NCBI GenBank assembly: GCA_026414975.1
Contig: JAOAHZ010000004.1
Span: 62,001 to 126,000 of the forward strand
Length of the DNA stretch: 64,000 nucleotides
From: Bacteroidia bacterium
Lineage (GTDB): Bacteria > Bacteroidota > Bacteroidia > SpSt-205
Reading direction: 5' to 3'
The number at the start of each line of letters is the position of its first letter. Within the stretch, counting starts at the first letter, position 1. The notes under the pieces are model-generated. The model worked only from the letters and a program-made list of their open reading frames with translations, ran no database searches and was not told the DNA's origin. This document shows positions 4,362 through 8,124 of the stretch, in pieces. The position numbers and the translations under genes are program-made.

Positions 4362-4853
4362 TCATAGGTAAGGCTTAGGAGGGTCCTTGGGGGGTAGAGG
4401 GAGGGTTCCTGGTATACCCAAGAGGGGGAATTCTTTTCGGAGGGGGTGATACTCAAAGTCTTCGGGCAGGTACATGCGCCGAAGGTCTGGATGCCCTCGG
4501 AAACGAATGCCCATCATGTCATACGCCTCCCTTTCATGCCAAGCAGCCGCAGGCCACAAATCTGACACGCTCTCTACTTCCGGATGGGTCTCGGGCAATC
4601 GAGCCTTCACCCGAACCCGAAGGCGGCGGGTGAGGCTTACTAGGTTATACACTACTTCAAAACGGAGCCCTTCTACAAAGTGGTCGGTCGCTCCAATATC
4701 TACCAAGTAGTCAAACCCATGATTCTCTTTCAGTGTCCTGAGAAAAGGTTTGAGTTTTTCGCGTTCAACGATAAAGGTCAGCTCACCTGCCTGTTCTTTG
4801 ACCTCTAAGGCTTCGGAAGCCAGCGCTTCCCGCAAAGCTACCAGAGTACTCAC
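4362..4853 (-). CDS. nuoC: NADH-quinone oxidoreductase subunit C (first copy)
   Basis: 30-kDa-type subunit of complex I, in the hydrophilic arm at the cytoplasmic side of the membrane. The 163-residue protein has the central DYLVDIGATDHF region and the NuoC signature: WPAAAWHEREAYDMMGIRFRG, then HPDLRRMYLPEDFEYHPLRKEFP. The open frame extends far upstream into lptD, but that part is only the lptD shadow. GTG at 4853 is the first normal start after the lptD stop (25 bases away) and leaves the expected N-terminus. No other nuo genes are nearby, and a second nuoC lies at 36485. It ends three bases from the convergent outer-membrane gene. The start is inferred; the family is clear. Confidence 0.88.
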   Translation of the reverse strand: MSTLVALREALASEALEVKEQAGELTFIVEREKLKPFLRTLKENHGFDYLVDIGATDHFVEGLRFEVVYNLVSLTRRLRVRVKARLPETHPEVESVSDLWPAAAWHEREAYDMMGIRFRGHPDLRRMYLPEDFEYHPLRKEFPLLGIPGTLPLPPKDPPKPYL

Positions 4854-4878
4854 CGATGCAAGTCTAACAAAAATGCGC

Positions 4879-7356
4879 CTATAGTCCCCGAACGAAGCGG
4901 TCTTGCCAATCGCGTCGTTTCGTGATGCGCAGGTCTTGAAGCTTAGGCGAACGGGCTGAAATGGTGAGAAAATAACTCTGCCGCACCCCAAAAGGTATCC
5001 AGTTAAAGCTGAGCTCCCAGCAGTGGAGGTCCCGATAGATGTTGACGCTGGTGAAAGAAAGCCGCCTCTGAATAAAGTCAAACCCTGTGCTAAGCTGAAC
5101 CCGCCAGAATGGCGTGATATTTACCTCGCCGGAAAGGCCTAAGGTTTGCACCCATCGGTACTTGGCTGAGTCGGGGAAAAACTGACGAGTTCCAACAAGG
5201 TTATAGCTCAAGTCAATCCGCCAAGGTAAGGTGAAGAAGATGAGAGATTCTTCGTTTTCGCCTGGGAGAGTAGAGATGCGATTTGGAGCGATGGAGGTAA
5301 CGAAAGCCCAGGTCATCTGGGTGATTGTACCGAGGCGTCGGTCTTGGTGCCATCGGTACTGCGGTCGGCGTCTCCCCGTAGAGTCATATTGATAGGGGTC
5401 TAATGTGGCATTATAGTTGAGGTTGAGGCGGGTACCGAGGAGATTCGTCCGGGCTGAAAGCAGAATGGGCGCTAAATGAAAGCTATCCGCAGCAAAGTTA
5501 TAGCTGGTGGAAGCGCCTACATTGTCCAGAAGCGTGATGTACTTATACTTTCGTCCAGACGAGTCCCGAGGGTCTTTATATCGCATTTCCCAGAGGTTAT
5601 TGAGGCTAAGTTGGAGAGCTTGCTGGCGCCCGCTCGGCGGGCTGCCATAAAAGCCCCAACCGATGGGGTTGAAACGCTGTTCTCTCCCTTGTCGCTCTAA
5701 GCGTTGATAAAGGCCCCATTGGGGGGTTGAGAAGTCGGGACGCCAACTGAAAGCTGCGCTGGGAATAATCGTATGCCGGAAAGCCACCCCCCGCTTTCCC
5801 CTAAATGTCCGAACCCCATATAGCCGAGTTGTAAGTGATAAGCTGAAGGAAAAGTCACGAGCCGCTATCAGCTGGCGCTGTCGCTCTGGAAGAAGTTGTC
5901 CTGCTGTATCTATCGCATATTTCATCCGCTCGCTGTACAGGTATTCATTGTAGCTAAAGGTAGGGGTAAGCTGAAAGTATCGGAAAAGTGTATAGCCTCC
6001 TGCGACTTGTATATTGTGTCGAGCTCCCCATCGAAGCGTATCCCACATCGTTGGCGTAAAGAGAAGGCTTTCTGGCACTGTGATGACGCCTTGGGCGTCT
6101 AACCGGTAGGTGTAGCCGATGCGCTCATACCAACGAGGAGAACCTACTCGGCGCTTCCGCTCAAAAGGAAAAATCCGATTTTGATACAAGGCCAAAACAG
6201 GTACTTGGAAAGCCCACGTTTTCTGGATCACATTCTGGTTGTGATTAGCGCCGAGGGTTAGCTGCCAAGGTGATGCAGAAAACGACTTCTGGAACGCTAT
6301 GCTGGACTGAAGGTTCGTAGAGAGAAAGTCGGTCGCATTGTAGCTTTGTCGTCCGAGAAAGGTAGAGCTGCCGGCTTGCACATTAGCTGATAACGAAGCA
6401 GTAGGAGATAAGGTCTGTCGGTGCTGCCATCGTAAGAAGGCCATACGAGTCGCTTGATAGTCTGGATCGCCCGGCTCATTGAAGGTTTGATAAGCATACT
6501 GGATGGAAAGTCTACCATCGTACCAATATCGCTTTCGGTAAGTCCACAGAAGCTCACTACGAAATCCGCCCCGCGTGAAAATATCACCTTCCAGCCGAGC
6601 ATCCATGTAGCGGTTTATGGCCCAGTAATAGCCTAAACCTCTCAAGAAAAATCCCCGATCTGCAGCTTGGCCGATAAGAGGCAGGATAAACCCGGAACTC
6701 CGACTATCCATGAGCGGGAAGTAGCCGAAGGGGAGAAAAATGGGAATAGGCACTTCCCCAGCGACAGCGTACAGGGGACCACTGATGATCCGCTGCCCGG
6801 GATATAGCTTGATACGACTGGCAGCAATGTAGAAGTGGGGGGGACGAGCCGTGCAAGTCGTATAATAAGCCCCTGCTGCGTAAAAAGTATTGTCGGGGTT
6901 CATTTGCACCGCTCTTCCCGCTAAAACTTCATCGGCAAGCTGCTGACGCAGTCCTAAGATTTGTCCTCGGTCTCTTCGCAGATCATAGCGTATGCTGTCC
7001 ATCTCGTATTTCTGCCCATCCATGAGGAATATAGGCTTCTCTGCGATTGAATCCCCTTGCGGACGCCCTGAACCGTATAAAATACCTTGGTCCCATTCTA
7101 TCCGGGCCTGTCCTGTCTGAAGCTGCATGCCACCGCTGCGCAGGGTTACTCCTCTGTAAAGATATGCGCTACGCTGGGGGATATAGAAGGTTATGGAATC
7201 CTCCGCTGCATATTCTATCGTATCACCCCTATAAGACCTCTGTAGGAGCGAATCTCTCAGCGAGATGGGGAGGCTATCTGAGCGCGGACGCTGCTCTATT
7301 TGTGCTATCGCACTTCCCCAAAGAACCAGTATCAAAAGGATTTGGCATCTTTGCAT
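4879..7356 (-). CDS. lptD: LPS-assembly protein LptD family
   Basis: Outer-membrane translocon that inserts lipopolysaccharide at the cell surface. The 825-residue precursor has a signal peptide ending in SAIAQ, an N-terminal OstA/LptD beta-jellyroll region (SAYLYRGVTLRSGGMQL onward, about residues 60-160) and a long C-terminal barrel rich in aromatic strands. The segment PIPIFLPFGYFPLMDSRSSG is the conserved entry to the LptD barrel in this phylum. The start ATG at 7356 faces the amidase ATG at 7363, and its -7 box TACATTTG lies inside the amidase coding sequence. It is followed by nuoC after 25 bases, perhaps as one transcript. Assignment to LptD rather than another large barrel rests on the jellyroll region. 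Confidence 0.85.
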   Translation of the reverse strand: MQRCQILLILVLWGSAIAQIEQRPRSDSLPISLRDSLLQRSYRGDTIEYAAEDSITFYIPQRSAYLYRGVTLRSGGMQLQTGQARIEWDQGILYGSGRPQGDSIAEKPIFLMDGQKYEMDSIRYDLRRDRGQILGLRQQLADEVLAGRAVQMNPDNTFYAAGAYYTTCTARPPHFYIAASRIKLYPGQRIISGPLYAVAGEVPIPIFLPFGYFPLMDSRSSGFILPLIGQAADRGFFLRGLGYYWAINRYMDARLEGDIFTRGGFRSELLWTYRKRYWYDGRLSIQYAYQTFNEPGDPDYQATRMAFLRWQHRQTLSPTASLSANVQAGSSTFLGRQSYNATDFLSTNLQSSIAFQKSFSASPWQLTLGANHNQNVIQKTWAFQVPVLALYQNRIFPFERKRRVGSPRWYERIGYTYRLDAQGVITVPESLLFTPTMWDTLRWGARHNIQVAGGYTLFRYFQLTPTFSYNEYLYSERMKYAIDTAGQLLPERQRQLIAARDFSFSLSLTTRLYGVRTFRGKRGVAFRHTIIPSAAFSWRPDFSTPQWGLYQRLERQGREQRFNPIGWGFYGSPPSGRQQALQLSLNNLWEMRYKDPRDSSGRKYKYITLLDNVGASTSYNFAADSFHLAPILLSARTNLLGTRLNLNYNATLDPYQYDSTGRRRPQYRWHQDRRLGTITQMTWAFVTSIAPNRISTLPGENEESLIFFTLPWRIDLSYNLVGTRQFFPDSAKYRWVQTLGLSGEVNITPFWRVQLSTGFDFIQRRLSFTSVNIYRDLHCWELSFNWIPFGVRQSYFLTISARSPKLQDLRITKRRDWQDRFVRGL
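7346..7353 (+). promoter_or_regulatory. Variant -7 box CATCTTTG of the amidase gene
   Basis: One mismatch (C for T at the first base) to TAnnTTTG, nine bases before ATG 7363. It lies within the start of lptD. Confidence 0.4.
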
Positions 7357-7362
7357 GAAGGT

Positions 7363-8124
7363 ATGAGCAAATGTACGGGGCTTCTATTACTGGTAGCAGC
7401 CTGTTTTAGTACGACCTCTTTTCGCTGGATGAAGCCTATTCTTGTCGTCATAGACCCTGGTCACGGCGGGAAAGACCCCGGTGCCTCCGGTAAAGTCTTC
7501 AAAGAGAAGGATATTGTCCTTTCCGTATCACTCAAGCTTGCGGAACTACTCAAAAAGGACCCGCTGTTCCGTCCTGTCCTTACGAGGGACACGGATACTT
7601 TCGTAGAACTCATTCGCCGGGCAGATACGGCTAATAAGCTACATGCCGACTTCTTCCTCAGCATTCACTGCAATGCTAATCCCAAACGAGAAGTAGCTGG
7701 CTCTGAAACTTACGCTCTCGGAGAACATAAGACGAAAGACAACCTCGCGGTGGTTATGAGAGAAAACTCAGCCATACTCCTGGAAGAGGGATATCAGCGA
7801 ACTTATGAGGGTTTTGATCCAAACTCCGAAGAAGCCTACATCATCTTCTCTTTGATGCAGCATGCATACTTGAAGCAGAGTTTAAGGCTAGCCCGAAAGA
7901 TAGAAGATGCCCTCGTTGATAAGACTAAGCGGCAAAGTCGGGGGGTCAGACAAGCGGGATTCCTTGTCTTGTGGCGTACCAGCATGCCTGCTGTCTTGTG
8001 CGAGATTGGATTCATAACGAATCCCGAGGAAGAGAAATACTTGGGTTCGGAGTCTGGCCAGGAGCATATCGCGCAAGCTCTCTATCAAGCTCTGCGACAG
8101 TATGTAGCAGCTGGGCAGGATTGA
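7363..8124 (+). CDS. N-acetylmuramoyl-L-alanine amidase (Amidase_3)
   Basis: Zinc amidase that cuts the MurNAc to L-Ala bond of peptidoglycan, exported to the periplasm. The 253 residues start with a lipoprotein- or Sec-like signal (MSKCTGLLLLVAACFST). Catalytic features in order: VIDPGHGGKDPG (His ligand), FKEKDIVLSVSLKL (Glu ligand), DFFLSIHCNAN (second His ligand), and AVLCEIGFITNPEEE (catalytic Glu). A longer open frame upstream is only the antisense of lptD. The start codon is six bases from the divergent lptD ATG. The neighbouring LPS-assembly gene and this one both concern the envelope. Confidence 0.92.
   Translation: MSKCTGLLLLVAACFSTTSFRWMKPILVVIDPGHGGKDPGASGKVFKEKDIVLSVSLKLAELLKKDPLFRPVLTRDTDTFVELIRRADTANKLHADFFLSIHCNANPKREVAGSETYALGEHKTKDNLAVVMRENSAILLEEGYQRTYEGFDPNSEEAYIIFSLMQHAYLKQSLRLARKIEDALVDKTKRQSRGVRQAGFLVLWRTSMPAVLCEIGFITNPEEEKYLGSESGQEHIAQALYQALRQYVAAGQD
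7368..7375 (-). promoter_or_regulatory. -7 box TACATTTG of lptD
   Basis: TAnnTTTG match 11 bases before the lptD ATG, located inside the first codons of the divergent amidase gene. Confidence 0.6.

Follow-up and report, generated by a model that had tools for sequence, protein, structure and literature searches.

The genes for the LPS-assembly outer-membrane protein LptD and for an N-acetylmuramoyl-L-alanine amidase diverge from start codons six bases apart in the window (the whole stretch of 64,000 nucleotides that was analysed), and each carries a promoter-like -7 box within the first codons of the other, an arrangement that is real, conserved and unique in the sequence examined. The junction most likely consists of interlocked, face-to-face, near-leaderless promoters, which would be read by the housekeeping sigma factor of the Bacteroidota. 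Promoter and protein sequence thereby coincide: in ten species, the DNA of both promoters also encodes the beginning of both proteins.

Layout of the junction

The lptD gene occupies positions 4879..7356 of the minus strand (start codon 7356-7354, CAT on the plus strand) and its product matches LptD_2 (PF19838; E = 2.1e-140, 468.9 bits against a curated cut-off of 22.5), while the amidase gene occupies 7363..8124 of the plus strand (start codon 7363-7365) and its product matches Amidase_3 (PF01520; E = 4e-54, 183.7 bits against a curated cut-off of 27). The two start codons are separated by a spacer of 6 bases (7357..7362), which measures 5-9 bases across 10 members of the genus. Direct reading of the DNA confirmed the coordinates 7356 and 7363, at which an earlier sequence-only reading had placed the divergent ATGs. 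That reading had also placed a box of each gene within the codons of the other, and both words and both positions hold. The lptD box TACATTTG (minus strand, 7375 to 7368, 19 nt ahead of the lptD ATG) is a full TAnnTTTG match within amidase codons 2-5; the amidase box CATCTTTG (plus strand, 7346-7353, 17 nt ahead of the amidase ATG), within lptD codons 2-4, has one mismatch to TAnnTTTG and is hence weaker than had been implied.

Both starts are kept in the 10 genomes that carry the two genes, and signal-peptide-like sequence comes next. The assignment of the amidase start to 7363 withstands the alternative of a start further downstream, as 6 of the 10 genomes have Leu in place of Met23, which the next in-frame ATG encodes. 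Upstream starts (TTG at 7351 or 7300) are in frame here and were likewise rejected, since the variable spacer of the relatives breaks the frame. Within 7363-7404, a lipobox-like VAAC ends the signal peptide of the amidase, a motif that was not seen in the other nine genomes. At the other end of lptD, the longest NuoC-like open frame (4362-5081) overlaps the 3' end of the gene on the same strand; the true start of this frame probably lies farther downstream.

Promoter type and probable leaderless habit of the genus

The promoter sample for the genus comprised 280 kb from the contig that contains the window and, from the genus member G005, 400 kb, extended later to 800 kb. TA..TTTG stands 21-11 nt ahead of a candidate ATG in 117 of 416 called genes, with a peak at -12 (46 cases), and 16 other eight-letter words, scored identically over the same genes as a control, gave 0 to 13. 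The box statistics were also made without gene calls, whereby the 484 TA..TTTG sites in 680 kb gave an ATG peak at +12, with 70 cases where positions farther away mostly had 3-12 each, and the 198 sites with an ATG 11-21 nt on gave the consensus TA(C/T)(C)TTTG(C). A -33 element (TTG/TTTG) formed no peak upstream of these 198 near-ATG boxes and was found for neither junction promoter. The lack of this element alone is no reason to reject the Bacteroidota housekeeping-sigma (sigma-ABfr) type, because a -33 element is reported as not identifiable in Flavobacterium johnsoniae either (PMC7366714); a motif corresponding to the -33 element is mentioned elsewhere (PMC6847099).

In F. johnsoniae, the -7 box is described as running from T-12 to G-5 relative to the transcription start (PMC6847099), therefore a box at -12 from the ATG corresponds to a leader of zero length. 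The same spacing predicts transcription starts at 7358 for the amidase (plus strand, leader of 5 nt) and at 7363 for lptD (minus strand, leader of 7 nt), which supports the leaderless transcripts that had been assumed for this junction, in the sense of near-leaderless ones. The boxes of lptD (-19) and of the amidase (-17) sit in the tail of the genus range, which peaks 12 nt before the ATG, and the predicted leaders exceed the leaderless mode.

The box position that suggests leaderless mRNAs is shared by the close relatives. When 40 genomes were searched for TANNTTTG-N4-ATG, the pattern was found 133-223 times per genome in the 11 genus members (2-23 for the reversed control) and 152 times in G011, the sole other member of the family (control 6), while the remaining 28 genomes had 12-134 matches, usually 1-4 times the control count, with G020 standing out at 32 against a control of 3. 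In other Bacteroidota (717 kb, 74 loci from the best 80 of 123), distance 12 was not a peak; up to distance 44, the count was highest at distance 28. The family, comprising the genus (G000-G010) and G011, hence appears from these pattern counts to be dominated by leaderless promoters, which sets it apart from almost all of the other 28 genomes examined in the class, and this is probably the larger story behind the lptD/amidase finding. It points to a leaderless-dominated family within the Bacteroidota, a phylum in which 5'-end maps show few leaderless mRNAs: 87% of leaders exceed 10 nt in F. johnsoniae (PMC6847099), 5.5% are leaderless in F. psychrophilum (PMC9723704) and about 3.7% are shorter than 10 nt in B. 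thetaiotaomicron (PMC7366714). A genome survey that sought Pribnow-like boxes reported leaderless genes for 1 of the 37 Bacteroidetes/Chlorobi genomes that it covered (2.4%; Zheng 2011, PMC3160421), and a 2017 survey calls the Bacteroidetes leaderless-rich (PMC5397173). In the literature searched, no description of a leaderless Bacteroidota lineage or of the lptD/amidase junction was found.

Conservation of both boxes

All 11 genomes of the genus have lptD and 10 have the amidase. The 10 that carry both share one arrangement: the plus-strand box directly abuts the lptD ATG, 5-9 bases separate this ATG from that of the amidase, and the minus-strand box begins two bases beyond the latter. All 10 genomes have an lptD box of the form TAC[A/C/T]TTTGC. 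For the amidase, three genomes carry TAnnTTTG, six CAnnTTTG and one (G010) CATCTTCG, so that the amidase box is off consensus at position 1 (T replaced by C) in seven, with a second change in G010. Boxes with C at position 1 are weakly enriched ahead of ATGs (89 seen versus 65.6 expected), the TA form strongly so (326 versus 97.2), and the fuller C form CA[TC].TTTGC was seen 20 times ahead of starts versus 8.5 expected. The box columns rank among the most conserved eight-column windows in the 10-genome alignment of the junction, in which the aligner misplaced the G006 row. A composite pattern of the junction matched 12 times at 10 places in the 11 genus genomes (the doubled matches are two readings of one place), all of them lptD/amidase junctions, and not at all in G007.

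G007 is the single contrasting case, an 81%-complete genome in which neither protein nor Pfam search found the amidase. In this genome (L181 3753-6889), lptD lies inside a 145-kb contig, downstream of a same-strand gene that, from its His-rich translation, reads like a fatty-acid hydroxylase. The lptD box is kept as TACCTTTG, 15 nt ahead of the lptD ATG, the amidase-type box is gone, and LptD begins with MRIG instead of MQ. Two further genomes, G011 (66% complete) and G012 (77% complete), had no Amidase_3 match, and lptD was found in G012 only.

The codons under the boxes were compared with all residue-invariant degenerate columns of lptD and the amidase in the same ten genomes. Synonymous sites of both genes are saturated among these genomes, as one codon is kept in 5 of 464 such columns. 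Under the amidase box, lptD Gln2 is CAA in 9 of 9, against 0 of 42 Gln columns elsewhere that are all CAA, and Arg3 is AGA in 4 of 4 (matching columns elsewhere, 0 of 99), although AGA accounts for just 6% of the Arg codons on the contig of the window and for 3% in G005. Under the lptD box, amidase Lys3 is AAA in 10 of 10 (2 of 28) and Gly4 is GGT in 7 of 7 (0 of 63). Common descent fails to explain the frozen codons, because the same ten genomes act as their own control, and so does a preference for A-rich translation starts, because ATGCAAA occurs at 4 and ATGNNCAAA at 1 of 241 box-led starts. Judging from these codons, both boxes are held by selection at the DNA level.

Scans for other interlocked pairs

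Relaxed boxes number 404 + 372 in 680 kb, which puts the chance that both boxes fall into an 11-position window at one given gene pair at roughly 1e-5 to 1e-4; conservation makes a chance origin far less likely still. Divergent pairs were scanned for in 1.08 Mb of the window's own genome and G005, from 388 relaxed-box starts with an open frame of at least 80 codons and at gaps of -30 to 60. The 28 close divergent start pairs comprised 26 back-to-back pairs (gaps 28-60), one of them counted twice via two alternative starts, and 2 interlocked pairs, both of which are the lptD/amidase locus, one per genome. A strict-box scan of the same 1.08 Mb returned 23 pairs, all back-to-back, and lacks the interlock because the amidase box is off consensus in both scanned genomes. 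A general interlocking habit of the genus was rejected, given these gene-based results and a number of facing TA..TTTG pairs near chance (7 seen versus 4.6 expected), whereas back-to-back pairs of boxes (26 seen) depart from the chance number. A looser pattern search was too crowded to use alone; from among the matches listed came a glnN interlock in G002 (a facing box at a contig end), which is not common to the four relatives lined up (G000, G010, G004, G005), and the leads G002 C50 and G003 C1, which have no pair of fitting starts.

Proposed mechanism and alternative explanations

In the proposed arrangement, the lptD polymerase would bind over the first amidase codons and transcribe leftward, and the amidase polymerase would bind over the first lptD codons and transcribe rightward. 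With starts at 7363 and 7358, each new transcript would cross the promoter of the partner at once, and the two RNAs would have about 6 complementary 5' bases in common. Both boxes are presumably in use, if conservation is taken as a proxy, and the two polymerase footprints could hardly coexist; the geometry of the sequence thus supports the earlier proposal of one polymerase site common to both genes. The consensus lptD promoter would outcompete the weaker amidase promoter, keeping the wall-cutting enzyme low. lptD is expected to win because its box is consensus, whereas 7 of 10 genomes have an amidase box that opens with C, a form that is only weakly enriched before starts; the amidase would then be the sensitive partner, comparable to repBp under repXp of plasmid RA3 (PMC9455977). 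At basal activity, the competition may be negligible: five bidirectional promoters of Escherichia coli are reported to fire too rarely at that level to compete, and to do so on strong activation in one direction (PMC12825309). It is doubtful that the lock goes so far as to form a regulator-free toggle in coding DNA, where polymerase traffic alone would balance LPS assembly against wall cleavage and the lock would be under selection for anti-correlated or fixed-ratio activities. Polymerase competition between divergent genes becomes testable at this junction by synonymous mutations.

The sequence-only reading went further and held expression of the two genes to be mutually exclusive in time, which lacks support, as no switch is visible in the sequence and the steric exclusion of two polymerases is momentary. 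A true regulatory switch, in which the firing of one promoter silences the partner for long periods so that LPS assembly and wall cleavage alternate, is improbable. The geometry would forbid two bound polymerases, and face-to-face promoters can suppress the weaker partner, as described for repXp over repBp (PMC9455977), but the exclusion would last no longer than one initiation, every growing cell presumably needs both products, and the E. coli promoters show no competition at basal activity. Because those promoters compete only on strong activation (PMC12825309), strict alternation is unlikely without an activator. The inverted repeat TTTGC-N-GCAAA could alternatively be the operator of a dimeric regulator that controls both genes, and it is indeed centred between the starts and free of mismatches in 9 of the 10 genomes, G010 having TTCGC. 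This explanation is very improbable: the inner spacing is 11 (one genome), 12 (five), 13 (two), 14 (one) or 15 (one), which exceeds the tolerance of a fixed dimer site, both arms are the promoter box of the genus, and a search of the 11 genomes gave no match to the composite pattern away from this junction.

A somewhat less remote, still unlikely, explanation is that the junction drives lptD only and that the amidase has its promoter elsewhere; the CAAA-type beginning of lptD would then be kept for translation (A-rich codons after the AUG) or for the signal peptide. The off-consensus first position of the amidase box, in a form that is weakly enriched at best, would fit this. On the other hand, the scarcity of ATGCAAA among box-led starts speaks against a general translation signal, LptD of G007 lacks the CAAA-type start though its own box is kept, and the match extends across Gln2-Arg/Ile3-Tyr/Cys/Trp4 with rare AGA codons. 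Furthermore, 8 of 10 genomes have no alternative plus-strand TA..TTTG in the 400 nt that precede the amidase ATG, and the other two have one each, G002 at -359 and G001 at -137. Two box-like words may also meet at a tight junction by chance, for which the near-chance number of facing pairs could be adduced, but conservation in 10 of 10 genomes, the frozen codons, the uniqueness of the junction and the loss of the amidase box along with the amidase leave this hardly credible, and chance as the full explanation is refuted by the codon test. Interlocked promoters for both genes remain the preferred reading.

Origin of the lock

Beyond the genus, 94 outgroup loci were considered (20 of 30 and 74 of the best 80 of 123; L011-L030, L071-L144). 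Within this sample, 82 loci have amidase and lptD side by side in divergent orientation and 1 has them in another order, and lptD was not found at 11, some of which are cut by a contig end. The start-to-start gap at the 82 loci has a median of 170.5 and a range of 37-798, with start codons estimated. Because the genes are so often divergent outside the genus and so widely spaced, the pair is, as far as these loci tell, old and normally well spaced and the tight lock derived. The adjacency across the Bacteroidota suggests an old functional link. The lock is, to judge from the box positions, made possible by near-leaderless transcription, and an ancient, wide divergent lptD/amidase pair probably collapsed where the mRNAs of the lineage lost their leaders.

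Comparison with known systems

The three-class naming of divergent promoters reportedly goes back to Beck and Warren in 1988. By the geometry of the box positions, the predicted promoters of the lptD/amidase junction face each other and transcription from each would cross the core element of the partner. E. coli bioA/bioB have been termed face-to-face divergent promoters (PMC3494674). As described for bioA/bioB and for repBp/repXp of RA3 (PMC9455977), the two promoters of the junction would face and transcribe through each other, with room for one polymerase. Unlike in those systems as described, the mRNAs are predicted to be nearly leaderless, and the core boxes lie inside the first codons of the partner. 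No operator common to both genes was found at the junction.

The junction also resembles the bidirectional (pseudo-symmetrical) promoters of Warman et al. (2026; PMC12825309) in that divergent mRNAs would arise under steric competition for one site. Those promoters have overlapping -10 elements, with a distance of 10-23 bp between the starts in the five pairs tested, whereas the junction has separate -7 boxes that lie outside both starts and face inward. Finally, leaderless genes have been described with a box about 12 bp before the start, and as common in Actinobacteria and Deinococcus-Thermus (Zheng 2011; PMC3160421). The box of the genus likewise stands about 12 nt ahead of the start codon, and in contrast to the Bacteroidetes/Chlorobi of that survey, position -12 is the commonest across the whole family, with a TAnnTTTG box.
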